From an uncultured Oscillospiraceae bacterium (GTDB lineage Bacteria > Bacillota > Clostridia > Oscillospirales > Oscillospiraceae): a stretch of DNA of 59,936 nt. Below are positions 12,361 to 40,635 of this stretch, in pieces (positions within the stretch are counted from its first letter, which is position 1; each line of letters opens with the position of its first letter). A model generated the notes under the pieces. The model saw only the letters and a program-made list of their open reading frames with translations. It was not told the origin of the DNA and did not search any database. The translations under genes and the position numbers were made by a program. The stretch is taken from assembly GCA_934589155.1 (NCBI GenBank), contig CAKTNP010000009.1:1-59936 (forward strand), read 5' to 3'.

Positions 12361-12365
12361 TTTTA

Positions 12366-25215: not shown

Positions 25216-25244
25216 ATCCTAGCAGATAATCCCCGGAATGTCAA
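25216..25244 (-). promoter_or_regulatory. Promoter of the tyrS T-box leader
   Basis: On the minus strand TTGACA (25239-25244), 17 bp, TAGGAT (25216-25221). The -35 overlaps the recN stop codon (25241-25243). Transcription would start near 25209. Confidence 0.75.
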
Positions 25245-26914
25245 GCCTTAAAATTGGAACTTTCTCCCTGACGCAGCATTTCCTCCGCGCTTTTCAGGGT
25301 GATTTCCGTAATATTTGCCCCGCCGATGATCCGGGCCAGCTCCGCCTTCCGCCCTTCCAGCTCCAGAGGCGTCACGGTGGTGTAGGTCCTCCCCTGCCGC
25401 TCCCCCTTGGCGATGAGCAGATGGATCTCCGCCAGGGCCGCGATCTGGGGCAGGTGGGTCACGCAGAGGACCTGCTTGGTCCTGGCCACGCTGCGGAGCT
25501 TCTCCGCCACCTTCTGGGCGGCCCGACCGGAAACGCCGGTGTCCACCTCGTCAAAGATCAGGGTGGGCACATGGTCCTGCTCCGCCAGCACGTTCTTGAG
25601 GGCCAGCATGATCCGGGCCAACTCGCCGCCGGAGGCCACCTTGCTCATAGGCTTCAGGCTCTCGCCTATGTTGGCGGACATGTAAAAGGCCACGGTGTCG
25701 GCACCGGTGGGGCCCAATTCCGTTTCCGTAAAATTGCAGGAAAACTGGACCTTGGGCATATCCAACTGCCGCAGCTCCTCCAGGATCCGGGCGGTGAGGC
25801 CCTGAGCGGCCTCCTGCCGGGCGCTCCGCAGGGCTTTCGCCGCCGACCAGGCCTCCGCCTCGGCGGATTTCCGCTTTTCCTTCAGCCGCTCCAGGCGGTC
25901 GTCGGCAAATTCGATCTCGTCCAGCTCCTTCTGTGCTTTTTCCAGATAGGCCAGAATGTCGGCGCAGGTGGCGCCGTATTTCCGGCGGAGCCGGTGAATG
26001 GTGTCCAGCCGTGTCTCGATCTCCTCCAGCTCCTCGGCGGAGTAGGCAAAGGCATCTTTCTGGTCCCGGAGCTCCTCGGCGGCATCCTGAACCTGGTACA
26101 TAAGGTCCGCCACCCGCCGGTGGAGGGCCTCCAGACTGTCGTCATACCGACCGATCCGAGAAAGGGCCTGCTCCGCCTGGGCCAGCAGCGCCGCGGCGCC
26201 GTCGCTCATATCGTCCCCGTAGAGGCAGGCAACCGCCGAGTCCATGCCGTCGGAAAGCTTTTCCGCGTTCTGCAGCAGCTTTCGCCGGGCCTCCAGGGTC
26301 TCATCCTCACCGGGCTTCAGGTTCGCCCGGCTGATCTCGTCGATCTGGAACTTCAGGGCCTCCATCCGGCGGAGCTTTTCGCTCTCATCCATGGACAACC
26401 GGTCGATCTCCCGGTTCAAAGCCGCCACGGCGGCATATTTTTCGCCGTAGGCATCCAAAAGGGCCTGATCCCGGCCGAAGGCATCCAGATAGCCCAGATG
26501 GTTGGCCTCGTCAAACAGGGCCTGGGAATCATGCTGGCCGTGAATGTTGATGAGCTGCAGACCCAGCTGCCGCAGAGCGGAGACGGTAACGGCCTGGCCG
26601 TTGACCCGGCAGACATTCTTCCCGTCCAGGAAGATCTCCCGCTGGATCATGGTCTCCGGCGCATAAGTCACGTGATAGTCCCCAAACCAAGAAAGCTCCG
26701 GCATGTCCGTGAAAATTGCACTGACAAAGGCCTTCTGGGTGCCGGTCCGGATCACGTCCCGATAGGTTCGTTCTCCCAGAATGGCGGAGATTGCGTCGAT
26801 GACGATGGATTTACCGGCGCCGGTCTCACCGGTCAGCACGTTGAAGCCCCGGCCAAAGGTAATATCGGCCTGGTCAATGACAGCGATATTCTCAATATGC
26901 AGCAGGCTCAGCAA
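25241..26914 (-). CDS. recN: DNA repair protein RecN
   Basis: 557 residues. Walker A GETGAGKSIVIDAI at about 30-43, long coiled-coil arms in the middle, and a C-terminal ABC signature/Walker B region (VASGGELARIMLALK, TLIFDEVDTGVSG). It is an SMC-like ATPase acting at double-strand breaks. The start is a TTG at 26914 with AGGGGG 8 nt upstream. It is last in the nusB-recN gene block. Confidence 0.96.
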   Translation of the reverse strand: MLSLLHIENIAVIDQADITFGRGFNVLTGETGAGKSIVIDAISAILGERTYRDVIRTGTQKAFVSAIFTDMPELSWFGDYHVTYAPETMIQREIFLDGKNVCRVNGQAVTVSALRQLGLQLINIHGQHDSQALFDEANHLGYLDAFGRDQALLDAYGEKYAAVAALNREIDRLSMDESEKLRRMEALKFQIDEISRANLKPGEDETLEARRKLLQNAEKLSDGMDSAVACLYGDDMSDGAAALLAQAEQALSRIGRYDDSLEALHRRVADLMYQVQDAAEELRDQKDAFAYSAEELEEIETRLDTIHRLRRKYGATCADILAYLEKAQKELDEIEFADDRLERLKEKRKSAEAEAWSAAKALRSARQEAAQGLTARILEELRQLDMPKVQFSCNFTETELGPTGADTVAFYMSANIGESLKPMSKVASGGELARIMLALKNVLAEQDHVPTLIFDEVDTGVSGRAAQKVAEKLRSVARTKQVLCVTHLPQIAALAEIHLLIAKGERQGRTYTTVTPLELEGRKAELARIIGGANITEITLKSAEEMLRQGESSNFKA

Positions 26915-26941: not shown

Positions 26942-27394
26942 TCAGGACAGCAGATTTTTGATCTCACCGCAGAAGGCGGCAGCGGCATTGGAATCCCGCA
27001 TGACCAGAAACACGGTGTCGTCACCGGCCAGGGTCCCCACCACCACGGACATGTTCATGGCGTCCACAGCAGAAGCGGCGGCGGAAGCCAGCCCCGGCAT
27101 AGTCTTGATAATGACCATATTCTGGGCATAGTCGTAACTGGTGATGCACTCTCTGAAAATGGTGTTGAGCCGGGCAGAGAAGGTGCCGGCTCCCTCCCGC
27201 ACGGAGGTAGTGTAGCGATAGGTGCCGAAGGAAGTCAGTTCCTTCACCACCCGAAGTTCCTTGATATCCCTGGAAATGGTAGCCTGGGTGCTGTAAAAGC
27301 CCGCGTTCTGGAGCTCCTCCAGCAGCTGCTCCTGGGTCTCGATGTCCTTTGTGGAGATGATCTCCATGATCTTTGCCTGGCGTTGGGTCTTCAT
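26942..27394 (-). CDS. argR: Arginine repressor ArgR/AhrC
   Basis: 150 residues. N-terminal winged helix (RQAKIMEIISTKDIETQEQLLEEL, TQATISRDIKELRVVK) and C-terminal arginine-binding/hexamerisation domain with GTLAGDDTVF. It controls arginine biosynthesis and catabolism. Its location between nadK and recN is the conserved Firmicutes order. ATG 27394 chosen by homology and the GGAG site upstream. Confidence 0.95.
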   Translation of the reverse strand: MKTQRQAKIMEIISTKDIETQEQLLEELQNAGFYSTQATISRDIKELRVVKELTSFGTYRYTTSVREGAGTFSARLNTIFRECITSYDYAQNMVIIKTMPGLASAAASAVDAMNMSVVVGTLAGDDTVFLVMRDSNAAAAFCGEIKNLLS

Positions 27395-27407
27395 CCGGTC
27401 CACTCCT

Positions 27408-28271
27408 TTACTGATTTCTGAATTTGTTGGAAATGATGTCGTAAAAACTGCGATCTTTGATCCGAACAAGCTGGGTCTCCAGCTTGGACCGGGAAACGAC
27501 CACGGTATCTCCTGTGTTCAGGCGCATGGCCCGGCCGCCGTCGGCGGAAACAAAGGCGTTCTTTCGCCCGATCTTGCCAATCTTCACGGAAACCACCCGC
27601 TGGTCCGAGGCCACGATGCCTCGGCTCTGAATGTCATGGGCGCAAATAGGGGTAATGAGAATGTTCCGGGCCTCCGGCTCCACAATGGGGCCTCCGGCGG
27701 AGAGATTATAGGCCGTGGAGCCGGTGGGGGTGGCCACGATCAGGCCGTCGCCGCCGTAGCTCAAGGCCTGGACCCCGTCGCAGAATACGCTCAGGTGTAC
27801 GATCCGGGCCACGGCGCCCTTGGCCACCACTACGTCGTTGAGGCAGGTCTCCTCCAGCAGGGTTTGGCCCTCCCGGATCACCTTCACGTCCAGCATCATC
27901 CGCCGGTCGATCTCATATTCGTTTCGGGCCAGCTTGTCCAGCAGGTCCAGTTCCGTATTTTCCAGCTCCGCCATAAAGCCCATGGTGCCGATATTCACCC
28001 CCAGAATGGGGATCCCGGCCCGGGCCGCCGCCTTGGAGGCATGGAGAATGGTGCCGTCTCCACCGAAGCAGATCAGCATCTCCGCACGGGGTAGCTCCCG
28101 GTGAATGTCCTCAAAGGGTACGTTCTTGGGCAGGTCAAAGCTCTTATCCACGTCAAAGGGCAGACAGATATGGGTCTCCACCCCAAGCTTTTCCAGCCGG
28201 TCCCGGGCGGCCAGCACAGTCTTGAAGTTCTTATCCCGATAGGGATTGGGTGTCATTACAACACGCTTCAT
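27408..28271 (-). CDS. nadK: NAD kinase
   Basis: 287 residues. The catalytic GGDGT motif (ICFGGDGTILHASK) and the glycine-rich GDGLIVATPTGSTAYNLSAGGPIV are present. It phosphorylates NAD to NADP with ATP. It overlaps tlyA by 4 nt. Confidence 0.95.
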   Translation of the reverse strand: MKRVVMTPNPYRDKNFKTVLAARDRLEKLGVETHICLPFDVDKSFDLPKNVPFEDIHRELPRAEMLICFGGDGTILHASKAAARAGIPILGVNIGTMGFMAELENTELDLLDKLARNEYEIDRRMMLDVKVIREGQTLLEETCLNDVVVAKGAVARIVHLSVFCDGVQALSYGGDGLIVATPTGSTAYNLSAGGPIVEPEARNILITPICAHDIQSRGIVASDQRVVSVKIGKIGRKNAFVSADGGRAMRLNTGDTVVVSRSKLETQLVRIKDRSFYDIISNKFRNQ

Positions 28272-29080
28272 TCGTGGCCTCCCTTCAAGGTCTCATGGGC
28301 ACGGGCCACCAATTCCCCAAGATCCGGCAGGTTTTCCTGGCCGGGCTCCATGGAAAGATGACCCAAAAACTCAATGTTCCCCTCCGGTCCCTTGACCGGC
28401 GAGAAGGTCAGGCCCCGGATGGTCATATCCAGGCTCCCGGCCAGAGCCACGAAGTTTTCCAGGACCTCCTGATGGACGGCGGGATCCCGGACTACGCCCT
28501 TCTTGCCCACCTTGTCCTTTCCGGCTTCAAACTGGGGCTTGATGAGGCATAGGACCTGGCCCGTGGGCTTCAGCAGCTGCCGGATCACCGGCAGCACGAT
28601 CTTCAAGGAAATAAAGGAAACGTCCACCACGGAAAGGTCCAGGGGCTCCCCCAGATCCTCCGGCGTTACGTTCCGGATGTTGGTTCGCTCCATGCAGACC
28701 ACCCGGGGGTCGTTGCGGACCTTCCAGGCCAGCTGACCGTAGCCCACGTCGATGGCGAAGACCTTGGAGGCTCCATGCTGCAGGAGGCAGTCCGTAAAGC
28801 CTCCCGTGGAGGCGCCGGAGTCGCTGCACACATAGCCCTCCGGCCGAACGCCGAAGTCCCGCAGGGCCTTTTCCAACTTTAGCCCGCCCCGGCTCACATA
28901 GGGACACACGGCCCCCCGGACCTCGATGTCGGCGGTATCCTCGAACATGGCCCCGGGCTTGTCCGCCTTCTGGCCGTTGACGTACACCTCGCCGCTCATA
29001 ATAATGGCCTGGGCCTTGGAGCGGGTCTCCGCCAGGCCCTTTTCCGTCAAAAGGGCGTCTAACCGCTGTTTATTTTTCAC
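28268..29080 (-). CDS. tlyA: TlyA-family rRNA 2'-O-methyltransferase (S4 + FtsJ)
   Basis: 270 residues. N-terminal S4 domain (RLDALLTEKGLAETRSKAQAIIMSGEVYVNGQ) and FtsJ-like methyltransferase (CSDSGASTGGFTDCLLQHGASKVFAIDVGYGQL). The K-D-K-type residues (LVDVS, KPQFE) fit 2'-O-methyl transfer to rRNA. Some relatives are called hemolysins, but the family role is rRNA modification. It overlaps the dxs stop by 11 nt. Confidence 0.93.
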   Translation of the reverse strand: MKNKQRLDALLTEKGLAETRSKAQAIIMSGEVYVNGQKADKPGAMFEDTADIEVRGAVCPYVSRGGLKLEKALRDFGVRPEGYVCSDSGASTGGFTDCLLQHGASKVFAIDVGYGQLAWKVRNDPRVVCMERTNIRNVTPEDLGEPLDLSVVDVSFISLKIVLPVIRQLLKPTGQVLCLIKPQFEAGKDKVGKKGVVRDPAVHQEVLENFVALAGSLDMTIRGLTFSPVKGPEGNIEFLGHLSMEPGQENLPDLGELVARAHETLKGGHE

Positions 29081-30917
29081 GAGAAGAGCCCTCCTTTACC
29101 CGGTCTGCAATGCCCTGAGCGTCCAGCCCCAGGCTATGAAGCAGGAGCTTCCGCTCCCCATGGGTCACAAATTGGTCTCCGGTATTGACGGCGTCCATCC
29201 GGGCGCCGATCCCCTGCTCCGCCAGGGCCGCAATGACCTGCTCCCCCAGGGAGCCCTCCGCGGCGGCCTCTTCCACCACCAGAAGCCGCCCGGTCTTCTT
29301 CACGGACTCGGCAATGGGCGCAAGGTCCAGGGGCTTGATCTGAGCGATCCGCAAGACCTCGGCGGAGACCCCCTCCCGGTCCAGTAGCTCCGCCGCCTCC
29401 AGGACCTGGTTGATCATGGTACCGTAGGTCAGGATCGTCACGTCCCTGCCGGTCCGGAACACCATTTCCCGGGAAACCCCGGTATAGGCTCCGTCTCCCC
29501 CTCTGGGATAACGGACGGCCACGGGGCCGGTACATTCCTCCACGGCGTAGGTCAGCATTTCCCGAAGCTCTGCCTGGCTGGAGGGACATAGAATGGTCAT
29601 GCCAGGCACCTGACTCAGATACCCCACATCGTATAGGCCGTGGTGGGTCTCGCCGTCCTCGCCTACCAGGCCCGCTCGGTCCACGGCGAAGACCACGTGG
29701 AGCCCCAGGATCGCCACATCCTGGAAAATCATGTCATAGGCCCGCTGTAGGAAAGTGGAGTAAACGGCCACCACCGGGATCATGCCGCCCTTGGCAAGAC
29801 CTCCGGCCATAGACACGGCGTGGCCCTCGGCAATGCCCACATCAAAGGTCCGGTCCGGGAAGGCCGCCGCAAAGGGGGCCAGCCCCGTGCCCGGCAGCAT
29901 GGCCGCCGTAATGGCGCAGATCTTGGGATTTTTTTCTCCCAGCTGGGTCAGGGCCTTGCCGAAGGTACCGGAGAAGGTCTCTCCCCCGCCCTTCACCGGC
30001 TCGCCGGAGTCCGGGTGGAACTCGCCGATGCCGTGGAACATGGTGGGGTTCAGCTCCGCAGGTGCGTAGCCCCGGCCCTTCTGGGTGATCACGTGGAGCA
30101 GCACCGGCTTCTGCTCCGTTTTGGCGATCTGGAGCAGATACATCAGCCGGTCCAGATCGTGGCCGTCCACGGGTCCAATGTAGTTGAAGCCCATTTCCTC
30201 AAACATGGTGGTGCCGATCATGCTGTTTTTCAGCCATTTTTTGAAGCTATGGGTCATGGAATACAGAATTTTACCCCCGGGGATCCGATTCGTGAACTTC
30301 CGCCAGGCCTTTTTCAGGCCGAAATAGCTGGACCGGGTCCGGATCCGGGACAGATGCCGGGAAATGGCTCCCACGTTGCCGGAAATGGACATATCGTTAT
30401 CGTTCAGGATCACGATCAGGGGCAGATTGCTGGCACCGGCGTCGTTCAGCCCCTCAAAGGACAGGCCGCCGGTGGTGGCGCCATCGCCGATCAGGGCGAT
30501 CACATGGTGGTTCTGCCCCTGGGCCGTTCTGGCCCGGGCCAGGCCCAGGGCGATAGACACGGAATTGGAGGCGTGGCCCGCCACAAAGGCGTCCGTCACG
30601 CTCTCCGACGGCTTGGGAAATCCCGCCAAGCCGCCGAAACGCCGCAGAGAAGAAAACTGCTCCCTGCGGCCGGTCAAGATCTTATGCACATAGGACTGGT
30701 GGCCTACATCAAACACCAGCCGGTCCGCGGCGGTGTCGAACACCGTTTCCAGAGCCACGGTGAGCTCCACCACACCGAGGTTCGAGGCCAGATGGCCGCC
30801 GGTCTGGGACACATGCTCTACCAGAAAGCTCCGGATCTCCCCGCAGAGCTGTTCCAGCTCCTGGGGGCTCAATTTGATCAAATCTTCATGACCATGAATT
30901 TTCTCTAATATACTCAA
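29070..30917 (-). CDS. dxs: 1-deoxy-D-xylulose-5-phosphate synthase
   Basis: 615 residues. TPP-binding motif VIALIGDGATTGGLSFEGLND, HQSYVHKILTGR, and the DRAGLVGEDGETHHGLYD segment of the second domain are present. It condenses pyruvate and glyceraldehyde-3-phosphate at the start of the MEP isoprenoid pathway, matching ispA upstream. No ATG is in reach; TTG at 30917 (LSILEKIHG) is the best start, with TTG at 30929 possible. Both sites have a weak ribosome-binding site, so coupling to the preceding gene is likely. Confidence 0.95.
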   Translation of the reverse strand: MSILEKIHGHEDLIKLSPQELEQLCGEIRSFLVEHVSQTGGHLASNLGVVELTVALETVFDTAADRLVFDVGHQSYVHKILTGRREQFSSLRRFGGLAGFPKPSESVTDAFVAGHASNSVSIALGLARARTAQGQNHHVIALIGDGATTGGLSFEGLNDAGASNLPLIVILNDNDMSISGNVGAISRHLSRIRTRSSYFGLKKAWRKFTNRIPGGKILYSMTHSFKKWLKNSMIGTTMFEEMGFNYIGPVDGHDLDRLMYLLQIAKTEQKPVLLHVITQKGRGYAPAELNPTMFHGIGEFHPDSGEPVKGGGETFSGTFGKALTQLGEKNPKICAITAAMLPGTGLAPFAAAFPDRTFDVGIAEGHAVSMAGGLAKGGMIPVVAVYSTFLQRAYDMIFQDVAILGLHVVFAVDRAGLVGEDGETHHGLYDVGYLSQVPGMTILCPSSQAELREMLTYAVEECTGPVAVRYPRGGDGAYTGVSREMVFRTGRDVTILTYGTMINQVLEAAELLDREGVSAEVLRIAQIKPLDLAPIAESVKKTGRLLVVEEAAAEGSLGEQVIAALAEQGIGARMDAVNTGDQFVTHGERKLLLHSLGLDAQGIADRVKEGSSREK

Positions 30918-30936
30918 TTCACGACACAACCTGACA

Positions 30937-31572
30937 TTAAACTTTTCTCTGCGGCTGCTTTTTCCCTTTGGCGGCCTTCTTTTTGGGCCCGCACAAAAGC
31001 TGGGGCAGATGCTTGATCCCATACAGGACTCGGCCCACGGTCAGCACCACCTTGGTGCTGGACTCCATGGCGAAGCCCTTGCAGGCCGCCTTGCCGCCTA
31101 CGGTAAAGCCGGCCACCAGGGCGGACATCACAAGTCCCACCAGAGTCTGGCCGGAAAAGCCCAGCCGGGACACCAGCTGAACGGAAATATTGGCCGCGGC
31201 CGCACCGGAGACCACGCCGCAAATGTCGCCCACCACATCGTTGCAGATGGAGGACACCCGGTCGGCCTTCCGCAGCAGGTGGATACATTCCGCGGCGGCC
31301 GGGACCTTCTTAGCAGCCATGGAGTGAAAGGGCTTCTCCTCCGCGGAGGTCACGGCAACGCCGATGACGTCAAAGACAATACCAAGAAAAACGATGAAAA
31401 AAAGCACCGCGAAAGCCACAAAAATACCGGAGGCTTCCATCAGCGCGTCAGACACAAAGGAAATGGTGCCGGAGACCAGCATGGTCACCGGGAAGATCGT
31501 AAGAAGCCACCGGAGGTTTTCATTTTTTGCTTTCTTCTCTTTCTTATGCGGATCTGAGTCGTCCTTAGCCAA
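30937..31572 (-). CDS. Probable OLE-associated membrane protein (OapA-like)
   Basis: 211 residues. Hydrophobic helices at about 25-45, 50-80 and 140-165, and a very basic C-terminal tail (GPKKKAAKGKKQPQRKV). The part GIVFDVIGVAVTSAEEKPFH is reminiscent of the DUF21/CorB (CNNM) membrane domain. It sits directly between a 600-nt non-coding region and dxs, the place of OapA in genomes that carry OLE RNA. OapA binds OLE RNA and localises it to the membrane. TTG at 31572 is used, with AAAAGGAG 10 nt upstream. Identity is from location, size and topology; no motif is diagnostic. Confidence 0.75.
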   Translation of the reverse strand: MAKDDSDPHKKEKKAKNENLRWLLTIFPVTMLVSGTISFVSDALMEASGIFVAFAVLFFIVFLGIVFDVIGVAVTSAEEKPFHSMAAKKVPAAAECIHLLRKADRVSSICNDVVGDICGVVSGAAAANISVQLVSRLGFSGQTLVGLVMSALVAGFTVGGKAACKGFAMESSTKVVLTVGRVLYGIKHLPQLLCGPKKKAAKGKKQPQRKV

Positions 31573-31629
31573 TTGGGATACGCTCCTTTTGAATCGTAAT
31601 AAAAATAAAAAGTAACGGCGGCAGACAGG

Positions 31630-32226
31630 ATAAATCTTACGGCTTAGGTCGGGTGGGCTTTCCCCGGGGCGAACCCCCCGTTGCCGAAGGGGCAGTTTCC
31701 TTTTCATCTCCCCGTCCAAGCGTTGCCGGAATGGATACCCGATTGCCACTTAGACCGTACTGCAATCCCCTGTCTGCCCCAAAGGACAGCCTAGGTGTTT
31801 TCCACGGCGAAACAAACCGGTTCTTAGCCTCTTTTGCAAGCATGGTTTCCGGAAGCAATCGGCGAACGAGGTTTATGGCCATAAACGCTGATGCCTCGAT
31901 CCTCCATCCCCGCATGATCACGCAAGGCAGGCTACGCTGCACACAGCACACGATTCTGTGCACCGCAATGCAGGTTCATACCTGCTTCGTACGCAGTCAG
32001 GAGTCCAGATCGCTGGCTCGTTCAGCTGTCGCACAAGAACAGGTCTCCACGGAAGCCGGGTCGGGTATCTCATGCCATTGAAATGCGCCCGGGATCCTTA
32101 ACCCCCAGCACCCACCCTAAACTGGGCGTAAAAAGCAGGCACCAGGGACTTCATCGATATGCCCTTCAAAGGATTTTTAGGCCCTTCCTGGGAACCGGCA
32201 GTTCCGACTAGGATACTGCGCCGTTG
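31630..32226 (-). ncRNA. Probable OLE RNA (ornate large extremophilic RNA)
   Basis: A region of about 600 nt without a credible gene on either strand, while the flanking genes are packed tightly. It has its own promoter at the upstream end and a membrane protein gene immediately downstream, then dxs. This order (ispA, OLE, oapA, dxs, tlyA, nadK/argR, recN) and the length match known OLE loci of Firmicutes. Numerous short inverted repeats on the minus strand (e.g. GCAGGT..ACCTGC, GGTTTATGGCC..GGCCATAAACC regions) show structured RNA. The 3' limit is approximate. OLE RNA binds OapA and affects Mg2+ and stress physiology in Bacillus relatives. Confidence 0.8.
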
Positions 32227-32232
32227 AAATGT

Positions 32233-32261
32233 ATATTATCACAGATTTTCGGTATATACAA
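32233..32261 (-). promoter_or_regulatory. Promoter of the probable OLE RNA
   Basis: On the minus strand TTGTAT (32256-32261), 17 bp, TAATAT (32233-32238). Transcription would start near 32226, about 50 nt after the barstar stop. Confidence 0.6.
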
Positions 32262-32276
32262 GAGGATATGCAAAAA

Positions 32277-32561
32277 TTATTTTGCCGTTTCCTCCGTCTC
32301 CCATTCCAGGAGAAACCCGGGATTCTCCCGGGCGGCGTCCGTCACGGCCTTCCGGAACCCCTGGGCGTAGGCCCCCAGATTCTCGGCCAGGGCTGCGGCT
32401 CCCGTGACCTTCAGGCACCTGTCCGACAGCTCCGTCAGGCAATCGTAAAGGCCGTCCAGATTCCCGCCGTACCACTCCGGCAGCTCCAAACCGGCGGCCA
32501 GGGCCTCATGGAGCTCCCGCCGGTCCCGAATGGCCGCTCCGTTCAAAATACACCGGATCAT
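32277..32561 (-). CDS. Barstar-family ribonuclease inhibitor
   Basis: 94 residues. The barstar pattern is clear: LNGAAIRDRRELHEALAAGLELPEWYGGNLDGLYDCLTEL, where the WYGxNLDxLxDxL helix-loop carries the residues that plug the RNase active site, then an acidic C-terminal end (WETEETAK). It neutralises the RNase encoded just upstream, in the cytoplasm. Its ATG overlaps the RNase stop by 4 nt. Confidence 0.92.
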   Translation of the reverse strand: MIRCILNGAAIRDRRELHEALAAGLELPEWYGGNLDGLYDCLTELSDRCLKVTGAAALAENLGAYAQGFRKAVTDAARENPGFLLEWETEETAK

Positions 32562-33106
32562 TGGCCGTCCTCCGGAAACGCTGAGTAGACCACCTCAAAG
32601 GTCTCGTAATGGTCCTCGGTATAGTAGATTATCTGACAGTCCTCCCGGTACACCAATCGCTTGGCTCCCCGGCTGCCGGCGCCCAGGGTATCAATGTCGC
32701 ACTCGAAATAGGACAGCCCGTTCAGCTCCGGCAGGGCTCCCTCATAATTTCCGAAGCGGTCGCCGCCGATGCACTTGCCGGGGGCATAGTCCTCCAGACC
32801 GCCGCCGGGCCACCCCAAGGCCTTGGCCTCTTTTTTGGTAATGAAATTCTGCGGTAGACATCCGTACTGCCACACATACAGAGCCACATCCTCCTTGGAG
32901 GTGTATATTCCATCTTTATCCAGCAGAGGGACGGAGGTCGCCATGGGGACGGTCTCCGCTGTTCCCGGCCCAGAGGTCCCCGGCTCCGGTGAGGAGGCCG
33001 TCTGGGTGCTTACGGGATAGCCTCCATACCCCTGACCCACGCCGCAGGCGCTCAGAGACAGGACCAGCAGCACCGCCAGCAGCAGCGCAAGAATTCGTTT
33101 CGTCAT
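32558..33106 (-). CDS. Barnase-type secreted ribonuclease (lipoprotein)
   Basis: 182 residues. Lipoprotein signal with LSACG lipobox (Cys about 21) and a Ser/Pro/Thr-rich spacer to about 60. The rest aligns by eye with barnase: LPQNFITKKEAKALGWPGGGLEDYAPGKCIGGDRFGNYEG. Its catalytic residues are all present: Glu in YFECDID, Arg in KRLVYRED and His in TEDHYETF. It cleaves RNA outside the cell, most likely as a membrane-tethered enzyme. It lies between ispA and the OLE region, with barstar in overlap. Confidence 0.92.
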   Translation of the reverse strand: MTKRILALLLAVLLVLSLSACGVGQGYGGYPVSTQTASSPEPGTSGPGTAETVPMATSVPLLDKDGIYTSKEDVALYVWQYGCLPQNFITKKEAKALGWPGGGLEDYAPGKCIGGDRFGNYEGALPELNGLSYFECDIDTLGAGSRGAKRLVYREDCQIIYYTEDHYETFEVVYSAFPEDGQ

Positions 33107-33116: not shown

Positions 33117-33992
33117 TCAGAACTTCCGGTCCGTCAGCTCCCGGGCCAGCCAGGTGAGAAAATCCCGATCCGGGAAGGCCTCCAAGAAGCCAACGGCCCG
33201 TTCCGTATAATCCCGGACCATTTCCTCACACCGTTCCAGGCCATAGAGCCGCACGAAGGTGTTCTTGTCCTCGTCCACGTGAGTGGCCTTGCCCAGGGTC
33301 TTGGCATCGCCTACCACGTCCAGAATGTCGTCACGGATCTGAAATGCCAGACCCAGCAGTCCCGCAAAGGAGCAGGCCGCCTGGAGCTGAGCCTCGGTGC
33401 CGCCCCCGGCCAGAACGCCCAGGGCGCAGGCCGCATTCAGCAGGGCCCCGGTTTTCCGGGACTGGATGTCCAGGACCTCCTGCTCTGTGCAGGCCCGGCG
33501 CTCGCTGTCCATATCCAGGACCTGGCCGCCCACCATACCGAAGGTACCGGCATTCTCCGCCAGCACCGCCACGGCCCGGACAACGGTCTCCGCCGGTGCC
33601 TTGGCCGCGGACAGCACCGCAAAGGCGTCGGTGAGCAGTCCGTCTCCCGCCAGCACCGCCATGGCTTCGCCATAGACCTTGTGGTTCGTGAGCTTGCCCC
33701 GGCGATAGTCGTCGTTGTCCATGCAGGGCAAGTCGTCGTGAATGAGGCTGTAGGTGTGGATCATCTCCACCGCCGCCGCGAAGGGCGCCGCCGTCTCCGG
33801 CTCCCCGCCGCATATCTCGGCGAAGGCCAGGGTCAGAACCGGCCGCAGCCGCTTGCCCCCCGCCATAAGGCTGTATCCCATGGCGTCATAGATCTCATCC
33901 TGGGGCTGGCCCCGGCGTCCGTCCAGGGTGTCCTTCAAATAAGTTTCTATAAAGCTCTGGTATTGGGAAAGCTGTCTGCGGAAATCAGTCAT
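33117..33992 (-). CDS. ispA: Polyprenyl synthetase (farnesyl/geranyl diphosphate synthase)
   Basis: 291 residues. First Asp-rich motif LIHDDLPCMDNDD (FARM) and second FQIRDDILDVVGD (SARM) are intact, with GGKRLRP. It condenses isopentenyl diphosphate units, mainly to farnesyl diphosphate for undecaprenol and quinones. ATG 33992 overlaps xseB by 8 nt. Confidence 0.95.
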   Translation of the reverse strand: MTDFRRQLSQYQSFIETYLKDTLDGRRGQPQDEIYDAMGYSLMAGGKRLRPVLTLAFAEICGGEPETAAPFAAAVEMIHTYSLIHDDLPCMDNDDYRRGKLTNHKVYGEAMAVLAGDGLLTDAFAVLSAAKAPAETVVRAVAVLAENAGTFGMVGGQVLDMDSERRACTEQEVLDIQSRKTGALLNAACALGVLAGGGTEAQLQAACSFAGLLGLAFQIRDDILDVVGDAKTLGKATHVDEDKNTFVRLYGLERCEEMVRDYTERAVGFLEAFPDRDFLTWLARELTDRKF

Positions 33993-34218
33993 TTTCCTCA
34001 AACGCTCCTTCCACCGGCTGGCCGTCCGGGCCTTTGGACAGCTTTACGACTTTCAGCTCCGCTTTGTCCAGGAGCTTGGAGCATTTCTGCACCAGCCCTG
34101 TCCCCTCTTCAAAGAGCTTCATGGATTCTTCCAGGGCCACGTCGCCGCGCTCCATGGCACGGACGATCTCCTCCAGCCGGGTCAGGGCCTCTTCAAAGGT
34201 CGGTTCCTTTTTACTCAT
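33985..34218 (-). CDS. xseB: Exodeoxyribonuclease VII small subunit
   Basis: 77 residues. TFEEALTRLEEIVRAMERGDVALEESMKLFEEG is the XseB coiled-coil signature. It partners XseA to degrade single-stranded DNA. The ATG at 34218 overlaps the xseA end by 8 nt. Confidence 0.96.
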   Translation of the reverse strand: MSKKEPTFEEALTRLEEIVRAMERGDVALEESMKLFEEGTGLVQKCSKLLDKAELKVVKLSKGPDGQPVEGAFEEND

Positions 34219-35446
34219 ATGTGATCTCCTCCTGTTTTTCTTCCGAGGGATGAACGGCTTCCACCAGAGCCCGCAGGCTGCCGTCCGAAAGACGAAGCGC
34301 AATGAGATCTCCGGTTTTAACCTGGGTCACGGAGCGGAGCAGCCGCCCCTGATCGTCCGATGCCATGGCATAGCCCCGGGTCAGGACCTTCAGAGGGCTC
34401 ATGGCGTCCAACGCCGCCGTCAGGCGGACGAACCGCTGTTTTCTTCCGGCAATGGTGCGCTCCTCCGCCGCCAGCAGCCGGGCAAACAGGCCGTCCAGCA
34501 GCATGCGCCGCTCGTCCAAGTAACCCGTGGGGCTCTGCAGGCACCGGGCGGAGGCCAAGGCCGTCAGGCGGCTCCGGGACAGCTTCACCTGCCGGGCCAG
34601 GAGAGCCTCCATGGTGCTCTCCGTCCGGGCCAGCTGCCGCCGCAGGTCCCCCTGATCCGGCACCGCCAGTTCCGCCGCGTTGGAGGGCGTGGCCGCCCGC
34701 AGGTCCGCCACGAAGTCGGAAATGGTCACATCCGGCTCATGGCCCACGGCGGAGATCACCGGGATCTCCGAATCGTAAATGGCCCGGGCCACGATCTCTT
34801 CATTAAAGGCCCACAGATCCTCCAGGGACCCGCCGCCCCGGCCCGTAATGATCAGGTCCGCCAGCCGGTACCGGTTGGCGTATCGAATGGCCCCCGCAAT
34901 CTCCGCCGGAGCCTCCGCCCCCTGGACCCGGACCGGCAGCAGCAGGACCTTGGTCAGGGGGTAGCGCTTGCGAAGGATCCTCAGCATATCGTGGACCGCC
35001 GCCCCCGCCGAGGAGGTCACAATGGCAATCCTGGCCGGGAACTTGGGGATCGGTTTTTTATGGTTCTCGTCAAAGAGGCCCTCTCGGCTGAGCTTTTCCT
35101 TCAGCTGCTCGAAAGCCAGGTGCAGATCCCCCACGCCGTCGGGCATAAGGCCCGTGCAATAGAGCTGATAGGCGCCGTCCCTGGGGTACACGGCAATCCG
35201 ACCTGTGGCCAGGACCTTCATGCCGTTTTCCGGCCGGAACCGGAGCCGCACGGCGCTGGAGCGGAACATGACGCACTTCAGGGCCCCGCCCTCGTCCTTT
35301 AGGGTAAAATAGTGGTGGCCGGAGGGGTACATTTTATAGTTGCTGATCTCGCCCCGGACGCAGAGGCCGGAGAGAAGCACGTCCCCGTCCACCAGAGCCC
35401 CGATGTAGGCGTTGACCTGGGATACGCTGTAAATTTCCTGTTCCAT
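34211..35446 (-). CDS. xseA: Exodeoxyribonuclease VII large subunit
   Basis: 411 residues. N-terminal OB domain (SVSQVNAYIGALVDGDVLLSGLCVRGEISN), catalytic core with KFPARIAIVTSSAGAAVHD, ITGRGGGSLEDLWAFNEE and SAVGHEPDVTISDFVADLRAATPSNAAE. Functions with XseB in mismatch repair and recombination. It starts on the last base of the preceding gene's stop codon (TAATG). Confidence 0.96.
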   Translation of the reverse strand: MEQEIYSVSQVNAYIGALVDGDVLLSGLCVRGEISNYKMYPSGHHYFTLKDEGGALKCVMFRSSAVRLRFRPENGMKVLATGRIAVYPRDGAYQLYCTGLMPDGVGDLHLAFEQLKEKLSREGLFDENHKKPIPKFPARIAIVTSSAGAAVHDMLRILRKRYPLTKVLLLPVRVQGAEAPAEIAGAIRYANRYRLADLIITGRGGGSLEDLWAFNEEIVARAIYDSEIPVISAVGHEPDVTISDFVADLRAATPSNAAELAVPDQGDLRRQLARTESTMEALLARQVKLSRSRLTALASARCLQSPTGYLDERRMLLDGLFARLLAAEERTIAGRKQRFVRLTAALDAMSPLKVLTRGYAMASDDQGRLLRSVTQVKTGDLIALRLSDGSLRALVEAVHPSEEKQEEITYE

Positions 35447-36369
35447 TACCCTTCCTCCCAGGCCCGCCGGGTCAGGCAGGCCACGCCGTAGGCATTGTCC
35501 CGGGAGTACTCCGGGGGCCCGAACACCCCGCCCGAGGGTCCCATTTCCCGGCGCAGCAGGCTGTTGGAGGCCACGCCGCCGGAAAAGATCACCGGCAGGT
35601 CCGGATAGCGCGCCAAGGCCTGGGTCGTGGCGGTCTTCACTCCATAGACCAAACTCCGCAGAGCATAGGCCGCCGTTTCCGCCGGATCTTTGGACTTTTC
35701 GTAAAATTCCGTCACCTTATTCTGTACGCCGGAAAAAGAAAAGGCCATATCCCGGCATTTCACTTTGAAGTATTCTTTCCCCTGTGCCTTCTCGGACAGC
35801 TCGTCCAAGGCCCGTCCGGCGGGAAAATCCAGGTGCAGAAGCTGGCCCGTCCGGTCAATGAGCTGGCCTGCGGAAATATCCGTTGTGCCCCCCAGTTTTT
35901 CTGCCCGGACATTCCGTCCCTCCGGCTCCACATAGAGAAGCTCCGTGGTGCCGCCGGACAGGTGCCAAGCCAAAAGGGGACGGTCCAGCAGTTCCTCACG
36001 GCCTGCGCCGCAGCAGACGGCGGCAATATGGCCTTGCTGGTGGGAAAATCGGAACAGGGGCACATCCAGCGCCCGGGCCAGAACGGAGGCCTGGCTCTCC
36101 CCTGCCAAAAAGCAGGGCATATAGGACCCCTCCACCGCCCGGGGACGGGTGCTGACGCCAATAGCCCGGATCAAATTCCGGTCCATATCCGAAAACAGCC
36201 TGTCGGCAAGATCCGGCAGGCGTTTGATATGGGCAAAAAGGGCGTCGGACTGGCGCAGGCCCAGCTCCCCGGGCTTCACCGGCAGGAGCTGCGCACAGCT
36301 GCGCTCCACCGCCCCCACAGACGCCATGGAGGTGGTGTAGTTGCTGGTATCGATGCCTAAAAAAATCAT
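35446..36369 (-). CDS. TsaD/Kae1-family paralog in the nusB operon
   Basis: 307 residues, about 30 shorter than TsaD. It starts FLGIDTSNYTTSMA and keeps the metal ligands: the HxxxH in SHQQGHIAA and the Asp in SRDNAYGVA. LSGGTTELLYV and FSGGVASNSLLRR are the nucleotide-site motifs. True TsaD makes t6A in tRNA, with TsaB/TsaE, usually in another location. This is probably a paralog of unknown task, since it is always found in this block in some Clostridia. Whether it is the only TsaD cannot be judged from this window. Confidence 0.8.
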   Translation of the reverse strand: MIFLGIDTSNYTTSMASVGAVERSCAQLLPVKPGELGLRQSDALFAHIKRLPDLADRLFSDMDRNLIRAIGVSTRPRAVEGSYMPCFLAGESQASVLARALDVPLFRFSHQQGHIAAVCCGAGREELLDRPLLAWHLSGGTTELLYVEPEGRNVRAEKLGGTTDISAGQLIDRTGQLLHLDFPAGRALDELSEKAQGKEYFKVKCRDMAFSFSGVQNKVTEFYEKSKDPAETAAYALRSLVYGVKTATTQALARYPDLPVIFSGGVASNSLLRREMGPSGGVFGPPEYSRDNAYGVACLTRRAWEEG

Positions 36370-36863
36370 TGCGCCGCCTCGGTGTCGGGCGCCGGCTCCG
36401 CCTGGACCTGGGCAGGTTCCGCGGGGGCCATGCTCCGGGCGAAGCTGCCCAGAATGCCGTTGGCAAAGCCGGCGGCCTCCTCGTCATACTTCTTGATGAT
36501 CCGGATGGCCTCGGAAATGGCCACGCCCACGGGGATGTCCTCCATGTACTTGGCCTCAAAGATCGCCAGCTGCATGGCGGCTCGGGTCAGCCGGGAGATC
36601 CGCTTCACATCCCAGCCCACGGAGTAGGCCGCAATAATCCCGTTGAGCTCCTCCTTCCGGTTCATGACCCCGGAAACCACGGTATCGAGATAAGCAAGCT
36701 GCTTTTTGCTGGGGCGCTCGTTATAGACCGGGTTCTCCCCCGCCAGCTTTTTATAATAATCGGGCTCCAGACGGAGGTCGATCTCCTCCTCCGGGGTGTC
36801 GCCGGTAAATTCGGCGCTGTAAAGCAGGTGAACGGCAAGTTCTCTGGCATCTGACCTTAACAT
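36366..36863 (-). CDS. nusB: Transcription antitermination protein NusB
   Basis: 165 residues. N-terminal ARELAVHLLYSAEFTG and C-terminal AAMQLAIFEAKYMEDIPVGVAISEAIRIIKKYDEEAAGFANGILG are the NusB fold. A Pro/Ala/Glu-rich tail of about 25 residues (from APAEPAQ) is an extension. It binds boxA with NusE during rRNA transcription. It overlaps the TsaD-like start by 4 nt. Confidence 0.95.
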   Translation of the reverse strand: MLRSDARELAVHLLYSAEFTGDTPEEEIDLRLEPDYYKKLAGENPVYNERPSKKQLAYLDTVVSGVMNRKEELNGIIAAYSVGWDVKRISRLTRAAMQLAIFEAKYMEDIPVGVAISEAIRIIKKYDEEAAGFANGILGSFARSMAPAEPAQVQAEPAPDTEAAQ

Positions 36864-36944: not shown

Positions 36945-37313
36945 TTATTTCTGGGCGATCCCGCAGACGTTCACATTCACGTCCGTGACCGTCAGGCCCG
37001 TCATGGACTCCACGGCAGCCCGGACGGAATCCTGGACCGCGCCTGCGGCGGCGATCACCGTTGCGCCATATTCCACGTTGATGTCGCAGTCGATGGACAG
37101 GGCATTGTCGGGAGAAACGGTGAGCCGAACGCCGTTGCCCCAGTTCTTCTTGCCCAGCATCTCGGCAAGCTCCGCGCCGGGCTTCGCGGCCAGGCCCGCC
37201 ACGCCGTCCACTTCCCGCACCGCCACAGCGACGATGGAGGAGATCACTTCCTCGGAAATCAAAACAGATCCGTTGTCCTGTGTCTGGATAATGTACTGTT
37301 TGTTGTCTGCCAT
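36945..37313 (-). CDS. Asp23/Gls24-family envelope stress protein
   Basis: 122 residues. Family core: GSVLISEEVISSIVAVAVREVDGVAGL, VRLTVSPDNALSIDCDINVEYGATV, VTDVNVNVCGI. In Bacilli the relative YqhY is in this same place, before nusB, and is linked to membrane lipid metabolism. ATG 37313 with AAAGGAGG 9 nt upstream. Confidence 0.93.
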   Translation of the reverse strand: MADNKQYIIQTQDNGSVLISEEVISSIVAVAVREVDGVAGLAAKPGAELAEMLGKKNWGNGVRLTVSPDNALSIDCDINVEYGATVIAAAGAVQDSVRAAVESMTGLTVTDVNVNVCGIAQK

Positions 37314-37371
37314 AGCCAATGGCCTCCTTTGTTTTGCTGGCCGAAAACGGCACTTTTCACATTCTCATGTT

Positions 37372-37400
37372 AGTATAACACCGGAGGCGGCGAATTACAA
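37372..37400 (-). promoter_or_regulatory. Promoter of the Asp23-nusB-ispA operon
   Basis: On the minus strand TTGTAA (37395-37400), 17 bp, TATACT (37372-37377); start of transcription near 37365. It lies between spoIIIAH and the Asp23 gene, and is the only good promoter seen before the run of overlapping genes down to ispA. Confidence 0.65.
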
Positions 37401-37402
37401 CC

Positions 37403-37969
37403 TTATTTTACCTCAATAATGCGAATATCCTTTAATTCATAGCCGGACTGGCTGAGGATCACATCGGAGATCAGGGACACGTCTTCGGCCTGGAGCCCGC
37501 CCTCCGGCGCAGCCACAGCCACGGAGATCCCGTTGTCCGTCATGTACGCCACACAGTCCGTATAGCCCTTGGCAATGACCAGGCTTTCGATCTGGGCCTC
37601 GGACAGGGCCGTCTCCACGATGTTCTCCAGCTTATCGGAGGCGGCGCCGTCGGCCTCCTCTCCGTAGGACATGGCCTCCTGGAGCATGGACACGGCGCTG
37701 TCTCGGCTCTGCTGGCGGCTGAGCCGCACGGCGGCAAAGTAGTCGGCGGAAGCCTCGGCCCCGTCCACATCCTCCATGGCCGCCTGGGTCAGAGGATCGG
37801 AGCCGTCGGCCATGACCAGGGTGTCGTCATCCAGGAGCTTGTCGGCGTTCAGCGTATCCACCAGGTTTTCGGGGTCCCTGCTCTGGCTGTAAGACCAGTT
37901 CAGGTAGATCCCGGCGCAGACCAGCACCAGGACCGCCGCCACGATCACGTTCTTTTTCCACATTTTCAT
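37403..37969 (-). CDS. spoIIIAH: Stage III sporulation protein AH
   Basis: 188 residues. One N-terminal membrane helix (KNVIVAAVLVLVCAGIYLNW), then the EscJ/FliF-like ring-building domain near the C-terminus (LSEAQIESLVIAKGYTDCVAYM, AEDVSLISDVI). It forms the mother-cell side of the feeding-tube channel, bound by SpoIIQ. ATG 37969 preferred. Confidence 0.94.
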   Translation of the reverse strand: MKMWKKNVIVAAVLVLVCAGIYLNWSYSQSRDPENLVDTLNADKLLDDDTLVMADGSDPLTQAAMEDVDGAEASADYFAAVRLSRQQSRDSAVSMLQEAMSYGEEADGAASDKLENIVETALSEAQIESLVIAKGYTDCVAYMTDNGISVAVAAPEGGLQAEDVSLISDVILSQSGYELKDIRIIEVK

Positions 37970-37988
37970 ACAGTTTTCCTCCTCCAAT

Positions 37989-38516
37989 TTACTTCATTTT
38001 CAGGACCGTGACCTGGTCCGCGCCCAGGCCCGTTACGCTGCACACCGCCTGGACCACCGCCAGCCGGACCCCGGGATCGTCTCCCCCGCTGCAGACCACC
38101 AGCGCCCCCCGGAACCGGGGCCCCACCACCTGGGTGACTAGGGCCTCCTGGCTGGAGCCTCCCCGGGACAGGATCACCGTTTCCGTCCGCTCCCGCCGGG
38201 TCTTTCCGGCGTCGTCCTGGTCCGTGTCCAGCTCCCGGTCCTGCTGATAGACCGTCTGGCTGCCCTGGTCCTGGGTCAGCATGACCCGGACCGTCCCGGC
38301 CCCCCGGACCTCCGACAGGATCACTTCCAGTCGGGCCTCCCAATCCTCATTGGCCTCCTGCACGGCGGCGCCGTCCTTCTCCTGGACCTGCTGCGCCGTC
38401 CCGTCTCTTCGACCGGGGATCAGCAGCAGCGCCATTCCCACCAGCAGGATCATCCCGGGATATTTTAGGCGGTTCAGCAGGCTCCGGACCCTTTCGGCAA
38501 AGGCTTTCTTCTCCAT
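37989..38516 (-). CDS. spoIIIAG: Stage III sporulation protein AG
   Basis: 175 residues. An N-terminal membrane helix (YPGMILLVGMALLLI), a linker, and a ring-building domain with the typical C-terminal segment DPGVRLAVVQAVCSVTGLGADQVTVLKMK. It forms the channel ring across the mother-cell membrane. Confidence 0.94.
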   Translation of the reverse strand: MEKKAFAERVRSLLNRLKYPGMILLVGMALLLIPGRRDGTAQQVQEKDGAAVQEANEDWEARLEVILSEVRGAGTVRVMLTQDQGSQTVYQQDRELDTDQDDAGKTRRERTETVILSRGGSSQEALVTQVVGPRFRGALVVCSGGDDPGVRLAVVQAVCSVTGLGADQVTVLKMK

Positions 38517-38517
38517 T

Positions 38518-38991
38518 CTAGGCCCACCTCTGCGCTTTCTCCGGGATCCCCAGCTCCTCTTCCAGCATATGAGACAGCTTCGTTTTTATGTAGGGAGAGC
38601 AGGGTCCTCGGATCTCCACCGCCGCCGGGACCCGAAGCCCCTCCTTTGTTTCCAGCGTGACCTCCACCTCCAATTCAGCCCCCAGGGCCTTCCCTTTGTC
38701 CAGAATATATGCTTCTGTCTTTTCCCGTATGACTGCATCCGTCTGCGCTAGGAACGCCTCCGCCGCCCGGGCCTGTTCCCGGCCGATCCTGTATTCCAGA
38801 TCTCCAAGGTCCGCCTCCGCCGTCTCCAGAGACAGTGTCCGAAAAGGCCCCAATGCCGCCAGGATCAAAAATGCCCCGCAGGCCAGAGAGAAGATCCGGC
38901 CCTTTCCGGCCTTCCCCGCCAGCCGCCGGACCAGGGCGCAGAGGATCCCAGCCGCCGTCAGGGTCAGGACATAATTGCGGATCCACTCCAT
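38518..38991 (-). CDS. spoIIIAF: Stage III sporulation protein AF
   Basis: 157 residues. Two membrane helices (WIRNYVLTLTAAGILCALV and IFSLACGAFLILAAL) then a soluble C-terminal domain ending in KLSHMLEEELGIPE. The ATG shares its first base with the spoIIIAE stop (TAATG). Confidence 0.92.
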   Translation of the reverse strand: MEWIRNYVLTLTAAGILCALVRRLAGKAGKGRIFSLACGAFLILAALGPFRTLSLETAEADLGDLEYRIGREQARAAEAFLAQTDAVIREKTEAYILDKGKALGAELEVEVTLETKEGLRVPAAVEIRGPCSPYIKTKLSHMLEEELGIPEKAQRWA

Positions 38992-40049
38992 TACCCTGCC
39001 CCCTTCATAAAACACACCAGGCTAATGAGCTGCATGAGGCAGCCCGCCGCCACCATGGCCAGCACCAGCCCCATGGCCTGAGAGAAACCGTCGATCAGCT
39101 CCGCATGGGTCTTTCCCCCCAGCACGGCGCAGAGGGCCGCCGTGGCCTTCAGCATCAGATACTGGATACCCAGGCGCAGAAAGGGCACGGCGCAGATCCC
39201 CACGATGACCAGGGCCCCGTAGACCCCAGCGGAACTTTTGATGAGCTCCGCCCCCAGGACTACGGATTCCGAGGCGTCCGCCAGAATCCCGCCCACCACG
39301 GGCACCGCCGTGGAAATGGTCAGCTTTGCCGCCTTCACCGCGGCGGCGTCGGCCTTGCCGCTGATGACCCCCGTCAGGGACATGTACCCCGTAAACGCAT
39401 ACAGCAGGATCCGCAGACCCCAGGAGGCCAGATCCTTTACAAAATTCCGGAGCCTGCCCAGAAGGTCGTTCCCGGCGGCGCTGTCGGCAATGGTCAGGGC
39501 CAGCAGCACGTACACGCAGGGCACCAAAAGCCTGTCCGCCAGCCCCAGAAGCACCGTATCAAAAATCGCCGTGCCCAGATACAGGGCCGTTGAGCCGGAG
39601 ACCTGGCCGGAGGCGGTCATTGCCCCGGCCATGACGGGCAGCAGCACCTTACCGTACTCGCTGAGATCCCCCAGGGTCCCCGTGCCCAAGCGCAGCAGGG
39701 TCCAAAGGCGGCTGGTAAACAGGGCCGAAAGGCCCAGCGTCCCGGCCAGATCCACGGCGGGGCTGGTCTCCTGGCCCATGGAGCACAGGGCACACAGAAG
39801 CGACACCGCCAGCATAGCGGCGCAGAGCCCCACCGCCTGGCCAAGAGAAGTCTTGGCTTGGCCCAGGGCCTCCGTTAGAATCTCTCTCAGGCCCTGAGAC
39901 AGATCCGTCCCCGGCACAGGGACCAGCGCATCCTTGGGAACACCGCTGTAAACGCCGGAATCGTCCAGCACACTTTGGGTCTCCCGGGCCCATACGGGCA
40001 GACACAGCACGCAGGCCGTCAGGACCAGCAGCAGGATCCTCCTAACCAC
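38991..40049 (-). CDS. spoIIIAE: Stage III sporulation protein AE
   Basis: 352 residues. A signal-like N-terminus (RRILLLVLTACVLCLPVWA), then several membrane segments with conserved SpoIIIAE features (PVVGGILADASESVVLGAELIKSSAGVYG, MVAAGCLMQLISLVCF). The start is the GTG at 40049, with GGAGG 9 nt upstream in the end of spoIIIAD, which it overlaps by 8 nt. Confidence 0.93.
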   Translation of the reverse strand: MVRRILLLVLTACVLCLPVWARETQSVLDDSGVYSGVPKDALVPVPGTDLSQGLREILTEALGQAKTSLGQAVGLCAAMLAVSLLCALCSMGQETSPAVDLAGTLGLSALFTSRLWTLLRLGTGTLGDLSEYGKVLLPVMAGAMTASGQVSGSTALYLGTAIFDTVLLGLADRLLVPCVYVLLALTIADSAAGNDLLGRLRNFVKDLASWGLRILLYAFTGYMSLTGVISGKADAAAVKAAKLTISTAVPVVGGILADASESVVLGAELIKSSAGVYGALVIVGICAVPFLRLGIQYLMLKATAALCAVLGGKTHAELIDGFSQAMGLVLAMVAAGCLMQLISLVCFMKGAG

Positions 40050-40434
40050 CGAGCAGACCCTCCACCAGATCCAGGACCCCCTGAAACAGGGGCAGAGACA
40101 GATACAAAACGGTGGTGCCCGCGCAGAGCTTCGTGATTTTTCCCAAAGTCGATTCCCCCGCATCCTCGCACACGGAACAGGCTGCCTCCCCCAGAAGGCT
40201 TACCCCCGTGATCTTCAGCAGGATCCCCACCATCTCCCCGGACAGGCCGGACAGCCGTGTCAGCCGGCGAAGGAATTCCAGCACCGGCGTCAGAAATTCC
40301 CAGGTCAGCCCCACCAGCAGCACACAGCCCGCCAGGGACAGGAGAAGCCCCAGCTCCTTTGTTTCCTTCCGCACCGCCACCGTTAGGACGGTGCAGACCA
40401 CCGCCAAGGCGGCAGCACGCAGAAATAATTCCAT
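40042..40434 (-). CDS. spoIIIAD: Stage III sporulation protein AD
   Basis: 130 residues, mostly membrane helices (AAALAVVCTVLTVAV, LGLLLSLAGCVLLVGLTWEF), with the conserved GEAACSVCEDAGEST. It belongs to the channel's membrane core with AC and AE. Confidence 0.94.
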   Translation of the reverse strand: MELFLRAAALAVVCTVLTVAVRKETKELGLLLSLAGCVLLVGLTWEFLTPVLEFLRRLTRLSGLSGEMVGILLKITGVSLLGEAACSVCEDAGESTLGKITKLCAGTTVLYLSLPLFQGVLDLVEGLLGG

Positions 40435-40436
40435 GG

Positions 40437-40631
40437 CTAAAACCGGAACAGGTCCTTCACCAGGGTGAACAGGTCGGCGATCCGCTGGGCCACCAGCATG
40501 AGGACCACCACCAGAGCCGCCAGGGTGGTCATAGTGGCCTGCTCCTCCCGCCCGGACCGGACCAGGACCTGGTTCAGAATGGAGACGATGATGCCGATGG
40601 CGGCGATCCGAAAAATAAGATCAATATCCAT
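40437..40631 (-). CDS. spoIIIAC: Stage III sporulation protein AC
   Basis: 64 residues, MDIDLIFRIAAIGIIVSILN then TLAALVVVLMLVAQRIADLF: two membrane helices, the classic SpoIIIAC size. The longer open frame upstream is shadow of spoIIIAB; ATG 40631 gives the family length. Confidence 0.94.
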   Translation of the reverse strand: MDIDLIFRIAAIGIIVSILNQVLVRSGREEQATMTTLAALVVVLMLVAQRIADLFTLVKDLFRF

Positions 40632-40635
40632 AGGC

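Follow-up and report, generated by a model that had tools for sequence, protein, structure and literature searches.

A stretch of 59,936 nucleotides from an uncultured Oscillospiraceae bacterium (hereafter the window) carries on its minus strand an OLE RNA gene followed by oapA, dxs, tlyA, nadK, argR and a recN-type gene (Table 1). A preliminary description of this DNA had reported a gap with a promoter, a small membrane-protein gene and a set of downstream genes, and every one of these is located where it was placed. OLE is among the largest structured bacterial RNAs that have no known biochemical function.

Table 1. Annotated features of the window around ole (positions are those of the window).
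Feature	Position	Strand	Basis
OLE RNA (RF01071), full length	31599..32240	-	cmscan, 443.2 bits
ole promoter: -35 TTGTAT (32261-32256), 17-base spacer, extended -10 TG-N-TAATAT (32241-32233)	32233..32261	-	sequence
Three exact ARG-box half-sites: TGCATA (32272-32267), TGTATA (32260-32255), TATACA (32235-32230)	32230..32272	-	motif scan
oapA, 211 aa, TTG start, DxxxD motif (DVVGD), basic tail	30937..31572	-	ORF list, alignment, structure model
dxs (start codon inferred by eye)	29070..30917	-	TIGR00204, NCBIfam
tlyA	28268..29080	-	TIGR00478, NCBIfam
nadK	27408..28271	-	PF20143/PF01513
argR (arginine repressor)	26942..27469	-	PF01316/PF02863
recN-type (RecF/RecN/SMC domain)	25241..26914	-	PF02463
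barstar-family gene between ispA and ole, outside the OLE system	32277..32561	-	PF01337
barnase-type ribonuclease, lipoprotein-like signal by eye, outside the OLE system	32558..33106	-	PF00545
ispA (farnesyl diphosphate synthase)	33117..34001	-	NF045485
xseB, xseA, tsaD-like, nusB	33985..36863	-	Pfam
Asp23-family gene and spoIIIA genes (AA, AC/AD, AE, AH), with two unmatched ORFs between	36945..42014	-	Pfam

The proposal that the gap encodes OLE RNA is upheld by the covariance model of the family (Rfam, cmscan). The match runs from position 1 to 616 of the 616 positions of the model and scores 443.2 bits, where the cut-off is 50, with E-values of 1.7e-127 in 15 kb and 6.9e-127 across the whole window, and no other Rfam family overlaps it at gathering thresholds. 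The model aligns without large deletions and the P13 loop is present, which places the window OLE in the full-length class. By this measure the gap is a complete OLE RNA gene. Since the model overlies the promoter with its first c. 14 bases, the 5' start of the RNA probably lies near 32226. Open reading frames inside the gap, for example 31653-32081 (+) and 31637-31963 (-), fall on the structured RNA and do not count as evidence of genes.

The promoter that had been claimed upstream of the gap has a proper form, with a -35 hexamer, a 17-base spacer and an extended -10 element. The same layout recurs in relatives: a TTG anchor is possible in 59 of 62 loci, although the anchor in each was its closest match to TTGTATATTCA, so that their agreement at -35 is partly by construction.

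The gene order that had been claimed downstream of the gap is matched by the NCBIfam and Pfam assignments, and it recurs in relatives. The genes ole, oapA and dxs stand in that order in loci L001-L080 (ole is partial at several contig ends), and all 69 related loci that extend far enough have argR after nadK on one strand. On the other side, the Asp23-family gene upstream of nusB is one that we take to be yqhY. In most close relatives the run ole-oapA-dxs-tlyA-nadK-argR is unlinked from ispA/xseA/nusB and is preceded by unrelated genes; of the 46 related loci in which more than 5 kb is available before oapA, 6 have asp23 or spoIIIAE there. The window, unlike most of these relatives, retains the old gene order on the ispA/xseA/nusB side.

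Between ispA and ole lie barnase-type and barstar genes that overlap each other (32277-33106) and that the preliminary description did not mention. We ruled them out as partners of OLE: neither has a match in 104 related loci (some of which share genomes) or in L001-L080 (46 of these 80 loci extend beyond oapA by over 5 kb on its upstream side).

The TTG start codon of oapA is preceded by AAAAGGAG, and the gene lies directly downstream of ole, with 26 bases between the end of the Rfam match (31599) and the start of oapA (31572). In related loci the oapA start is likewise mostly assigned to GTG or TTG by a simple start rule, often after a strong Shine-Dalgarno sequence. An alignment of 24 OapA sequences has 27 invariant columns, which include the aspartates of DxxxD. 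The motif reads DVVGD or DVIGD in all 24 and in every OapA open reading frame from 103 of 104 related loci (partly from the same genomes; L102 was dropped with its start unassigned). DxxxD has been named as distinctive of OapA, and CNNM domains are without it (PMC11332333). Among 8,000 scored candidate proteins, 7,783 are related to OapA at E ≤ 0.001.

The OapA protein of the window is predicted to adopt a CNNM-like membrane fold. At default thresholds neither Pfam nor NCBIfam assigns it to a family; the CNNM family (PF01595) matches it weakly, at 18 bits and below the cut-off of 28.4, and matches 17 of the 24 aligned OapA members at E ≤ 0.01. An AlphaFold2 model of middling confidence (pLDDT 74) gave as its first four PDB fold matches the archaeal CNNM protein CorB (7m1t, 7m1u; Foldseek probability 1.00, TM 0.41-0.49), and the first five Foldseek matches are all CNNM proteins, none of which reaches E 0.001. 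A search of PDB sequences with the OapA profile returned nothing useful. For H. halodurans OapA, 7M1U has been named among the top matches (PMC11332333). The predicted transmembrane fold of OapA is like that of the metal transporters MpfA and CorB, but unlike them OapA is without CBS and CorC domains and has DxxxD (PMC11332333).

We also assessed the elements by which OLE RNA is known. Thinning at 97% identity left 62 of 71 ole sequences, and in 54 of these 62 non-redundant RNAs the k-turn strand ATCGATGAAG stands without a mismatch. The loop GG(C/T)(A/G)AC is present in all 62; we take it to be the P13 loop, an assignment based on the Rfam alignment. The GGG/CCC pairs of P6 are likewise retained in all 62. 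By contrast, the CCUCCU anti-Shine-Dalgarno mimic that has been described in P6 of H. halodurans OLE (PMC12054373) is found within one mismatch in none of the 62, the best match in P6 having two mismatches in 46 and three in 16. Loss of the mimic here does not disprove binding of bS21, because published OLE mutants without the mimic still bind it; it is the P6 G-C pairs that matter for this binding in H. halodurans (PMC12054373). As judged from these alignments, the mimic is not general among OLE RNAs, and the adjoining G-C pairs are retained.

A search for OapA in a genome collection gave 255 encoding places, of which the best 80 were used. The record titles for these best 80 of 255 places are mostly those of Oscillospiraceae or other Clostridia genomes from metagenomes, and at least 24 name a gut site. 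The best OapA identities among them are 57-63%, and the window's own species is absent there; closer OapA proteins (97%, 89%, 89% and 88%) come from metagenome contigs 1 to 22 kb long. The window also has a choloylglycine-hydrolase-family gene (16804-17841, Pfam), which is consistent with a gut habitat. On the strength of this gene and of the at least 24 gut-titled relatives among the best 80, the organism is likely to live in the gut.

It had been suggested that carriage by a gut organism would widen the setting in which OLE works. This widening is not new, in that occurrence in uncultured gut clades has already been published: Fernando and Breaker report 2,822 OLE matches in Bacillota, uncultured gut clades included (PMC11332333). 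The class has been described as occurring mostly in 'extremophiles and/or anaerobes' (PMC12054373). Because the name 'extremophilic' is misleading, a complete OLE from probably ordinary gut anaerobes has its use, although the distribution had been mapped before.

To place the locus among its relatives, we counted OLE and its partners in 295 genomes of the order to which G001 (the genome of L001) belongs. These are mostly incomplete metagenome-assembled genomes, the counts are raw and ignore kinship, and the OLE search used stricter Infernal filters, which can miss weak matches. OLE is present in 91 of the 295 genomes. A strong OapA match is present in 92, namely the same 91 genomes and G202; three further weak OapA matches are frames of 426-452 aa, MpfA-like in appearance. 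OapB is found in 79 of 91 genomes with OLE versus 110 of 204 without, and OapC in 68 of 91 versus 48 of 204. MpfA-like strong CNNM matches (E ≤ 1e-20) go the other way, being present in 15 of 91 genomes with OLE versus 183 of 204 without. Correlation of OLE with OapA-C and its anticorrelation with MpfA have been published (PMC11332333), and our counts reproduce both trends inside one order. The claim that the small protein is an OapA-like partner is thereby borne out on three sides: DxxxD in 24 of 24 aligned sequences, a CNNM-like predicted fold, and OapA in 91 of 91 genomes with OLE.

We found no link to Spo0A. Despite a published link between OLE and sporulation, Spo0A presence does not follow OLE within the order: it is missing in 11 of 91 genomes with OLE versus 15 of 204 without, six of the missing cases being inferred from gaps in lists. 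Locating OapB by the Pfam KOW domain (PF00467) was abandoned, the short matches resembling ribosomal protein L24 by eye; OapB was located instead by its position between map and infA. One of four such candidates (L121) was compared with PDB, and it matches 7k9b, 'OLE-associated protein B', with E 1e-7. An OapC candidate (L113) matches YbxF with E 1.4e-16.

Two genomes of the sample depart from the usual arrangement. In G202 (L124:5652-6308), oapA stands before dxs-tlyA-nadK-argR behind what by eye is a TTGACA-type promoter, and an OLE match was found neither in the oapA locus nor by the whole-genome search. It is a candidate exception that the survey adds to the reported OapA-OLE pairing. In G049, OLE (784 bases, the lowest-scoring of the sample) and oapA are each adjoined by group II intron pieces at two contig ends, after OLE (L127:4998-6016) and before oapA (L126:4782-4866), as if an intron lay between them. 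Six of the 91 genomes (G021, G046, G049, G143, G296 and G307) have OLE and oapA listed on separate contigs; contig ends account for some of these cases (G143), perhaps not for all.

The locus almost certainly encodes an OLE ribonucleoprotein, as had been proposed: the covariance match is full, and the 211-aa protein downstream has the motif, predicted fold and co-occurrence of OapA. Like the H. halodurans OLE-OapA system, it has the RNA family, oapA behind ole and the isoprenoid/exoVII block (PMC12265935, PMC10898510, PMC9723947, PMC12054373), with argR nearby, a promoter of its own, the k-turn strand, the P6 G-C pairs and the loop assigned to P13. It is unlike the H. halodurans locus in the barnase and barstar genes inserted in the window and, together with the other OLE RNAs of its lineage, in not retaining the CCUCCU mimic in P6. 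The TANB77 and RF39 clades are also gut Bacillota with OLE RNA, but theirs is a shortened variant form in which the OapB site is often missing, and the hosts largely lack OapB and OapC (PMC11332333). The window OLE, unlike these, spans all of the model, and most of its relatives retain OapB (79/91) and OapC (68/91).

We infer the working of the complex at this locus largely by analogy with Halalkalibacterium halodurans. An OLE RNA of c. 620 bases would be transcribed from its own extended -10 promoter and processed; a longer read-through transcript is possible. OapA, the CNNM-like membrane partner encoded by the gene after ole, would bind the RNA and anchor it at the membrane, and the complex would support stress adaptation and divalent-metal balance. 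Most relatives without OLE may hand this task to MpfA-type CNNM transporters.

Could the gap instead be a long structured 5' leader that regulates oapA-dxs in cis and has only kinship with OLE, without being a free-standing RNA? The RNA and oapA do adjoin on one strand, 26 bases apart, but the match to OLE is full length with the partner-binding elements retained, OLE has been published as a separate RNA of c. 630 nt (PMC9723947), and G202 has oapA without any OLE found; we consider a leader very unlikely. That the locus is a decayed and non-functional OLE locus is more improbable still: the adjoining barnase and barstar genes do indicate rearranged surroundings, but the match scores 443 bits with its pairs and loops retained, oapA is intact with the invariant residues, and the promoter layout is that of the relatives.

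The OLE ribonucleoprotein is in this respect a further example of a known system. What is new is the ARG-box part. In the 59 anchored ole promoters of relatives, the majority sequence is CTTGTATATTCA followed by the extended -10 element, and the ATTCA of this consensus sits in the spacer, where ordinary promoters vary. TATNCA and TGNATA are half-sites of the ARG box, the ArgR operator, whose consensus is TGNATAWWTATNCA. Relative to the TTG of the -35 element, TATNCA half-sites peak at +5 (41 promoters), -22 (21) and +26 (21), and TGNATA half-sites at +1 (56 promoters); the peaks at +1 and +5 fall inside the TTGTATATTCA anchor and are partly by construction, and those at -22 and +26 are independent of it. 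The argG promoters of this group serve for comparison: of the 7 that were over the cut-off among the 23 matches listed, 4 have TGNATAWWTATNCA exactly and 6 have it with at most one mismatch.

The enrichment of ARG boxes at ole promoters of the group is, as a property of these sequences, statistically strong. The counts of TGNATAWWTATNCA and the resampling, permutation and control-window tests that follow are all independent of the TTGTATATTCA anchor. With at most one mismatch, TGNATAWWTATNCA occurs in 10 of 62 ole promoters, where AT-matched genomic windows would give about 0.4 and resampled sequence about 0.5 of 62; 7 of 62 still have such a box once the -35 element is masked. Among 231 control promoter-like windows (AT ≥ 0.55, excluding argG loci and ole promoters), one has it. 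In non-redundant sets the counts are 10 of 56 in a first set and 10 of 61 in a second, or 20 of 117 ole promoters. At this stringency the true TGNATAWWTATNCA ranks first among 30 permuted palindromes in both sets, and every other permutation reaches at most 2 per set. At two mismatches the first set gives 35 of 56 versus at most 13 for the other permutations among the ten listed.

The first set comprised 71 promoters, 56 of them non-redundant by promoter similarity; the three of the 62 loci without an anchor are L102, L103 and L104. The second, which represents other members of the order, was drawn from 80 of the 91 ole upstream regions, of which 14 failed the first start pattern and 4 the final one (L248, L258, L262 and L263), so that 76 were used and 61 were non-redundant. 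The 11 regions outside it are those of G001 and G007, already in the first set, and nine others.

For this organism's own ole promoter the case for an ArgR box is weak. The three exact half-sites are concentrated there, in that 2 of 5,987 overlapping 70-mers of the window (step 10 bases) have three half-sites and both lie at the ole promoter. The case is nonetheless weak because this half-site count is equalled in relatives by 13 of 378 windows matched for AT and because the best 14-mer has three mismatches; within 120 bases upstream in the window, the full 14-base TGNATAWWTATNCA box is absent.

For the lineage as a whole, an operator is probably part of the ole promoter, with ArgR its most likely regulator: half-sites and, in some species, nearly complete ARG boxes lie over or ahead of that promoter. 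We give about an even chance to the further proposal, drawn from the same comparison, that ArgR controls OLE transcription in this order of gut Clostridia. The argR gene belongs to the same gene run (ole-oapA-dxs-tlyA-nadK-argR-recN). A pull-down with OLE RNA in H. halodurans brought down ArgR, and argR is often a neighbour of ole (PMC10898510); ole is reported to have its own promoter, and OLE RNA to increase with ethanol (PMC9723947). Under such control, ArgR would act both on promoter DNA and, as reported for H. halodurans, on OLE RNA, in a feedback loop that would tie the amount of OLE particle to arginine. The accounts of the H. halodurans system covered here do not mention ARG-box-like sequences at its ole promoter. 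No mention of an ARG box at an ole promoter was found in the OLE RNA and ArgR literature covered, which takes in few subscription papers; nor was an account of OLE RNA with an 'Oscillospir' name found in it.

Somewhat short of an even chance, in our judgement, is that a regulator other than ArgR binds the conserved element over -35, or that this element is only an unusual promoter context. In CTTGTATATTCA, the commonest form in near relatives, the half-sites stand closer together, by 4 bases, than in a classical ARG box, and exact TGNATAWWTATNCA boxes are rare, with one ole promoter in each set (L103 in the first, L193 in the second). We rejected CTTGTATATTCA as a regulon-wide site, since among the matches listed in 17 genomes all seven exact copies stand at ole and never at another gene; the looser CTTGNATATNCA matches non-ole places too, with at least 39 places listed. 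In the window, matches to TTGTATATNC with one mismatch are not above chance (8 versus 4.4, a number that 8 of 100 shuffles reach). The two-mismatch test is also less distinct in the second set, at 18 of 61 versus at most 12 for the other permutations among the ten listed. Set against this, the half-sites are the same as those in the argG operators of the group, boxes with at most one mismatch recur in distant relatives, some of them lying over -35 and spacer (L201, L244, L259 and L184), and at one mismatch the true motif tops the 30 permuted palindromes in both sets. With ArgR as the candidate, the ARG box at the ole promoter makes the association of ArgR with OLE a directly testable hypothesis, and the promoter result offers a concrete handle on what the OLE system senses.

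Elsewhere in the window, the region 8222-12718 holds a D12-class adenine methyltransferase gene and a gene for an Api92/LPD28-type protein near the tmRNA gene (12366-12718), and is perhaps a mobile element at ssrA. The region 46640-53896 encodes a surface protein of 2,418 aa with glycosyl hydrolase family 20 and S-layer homology domains.
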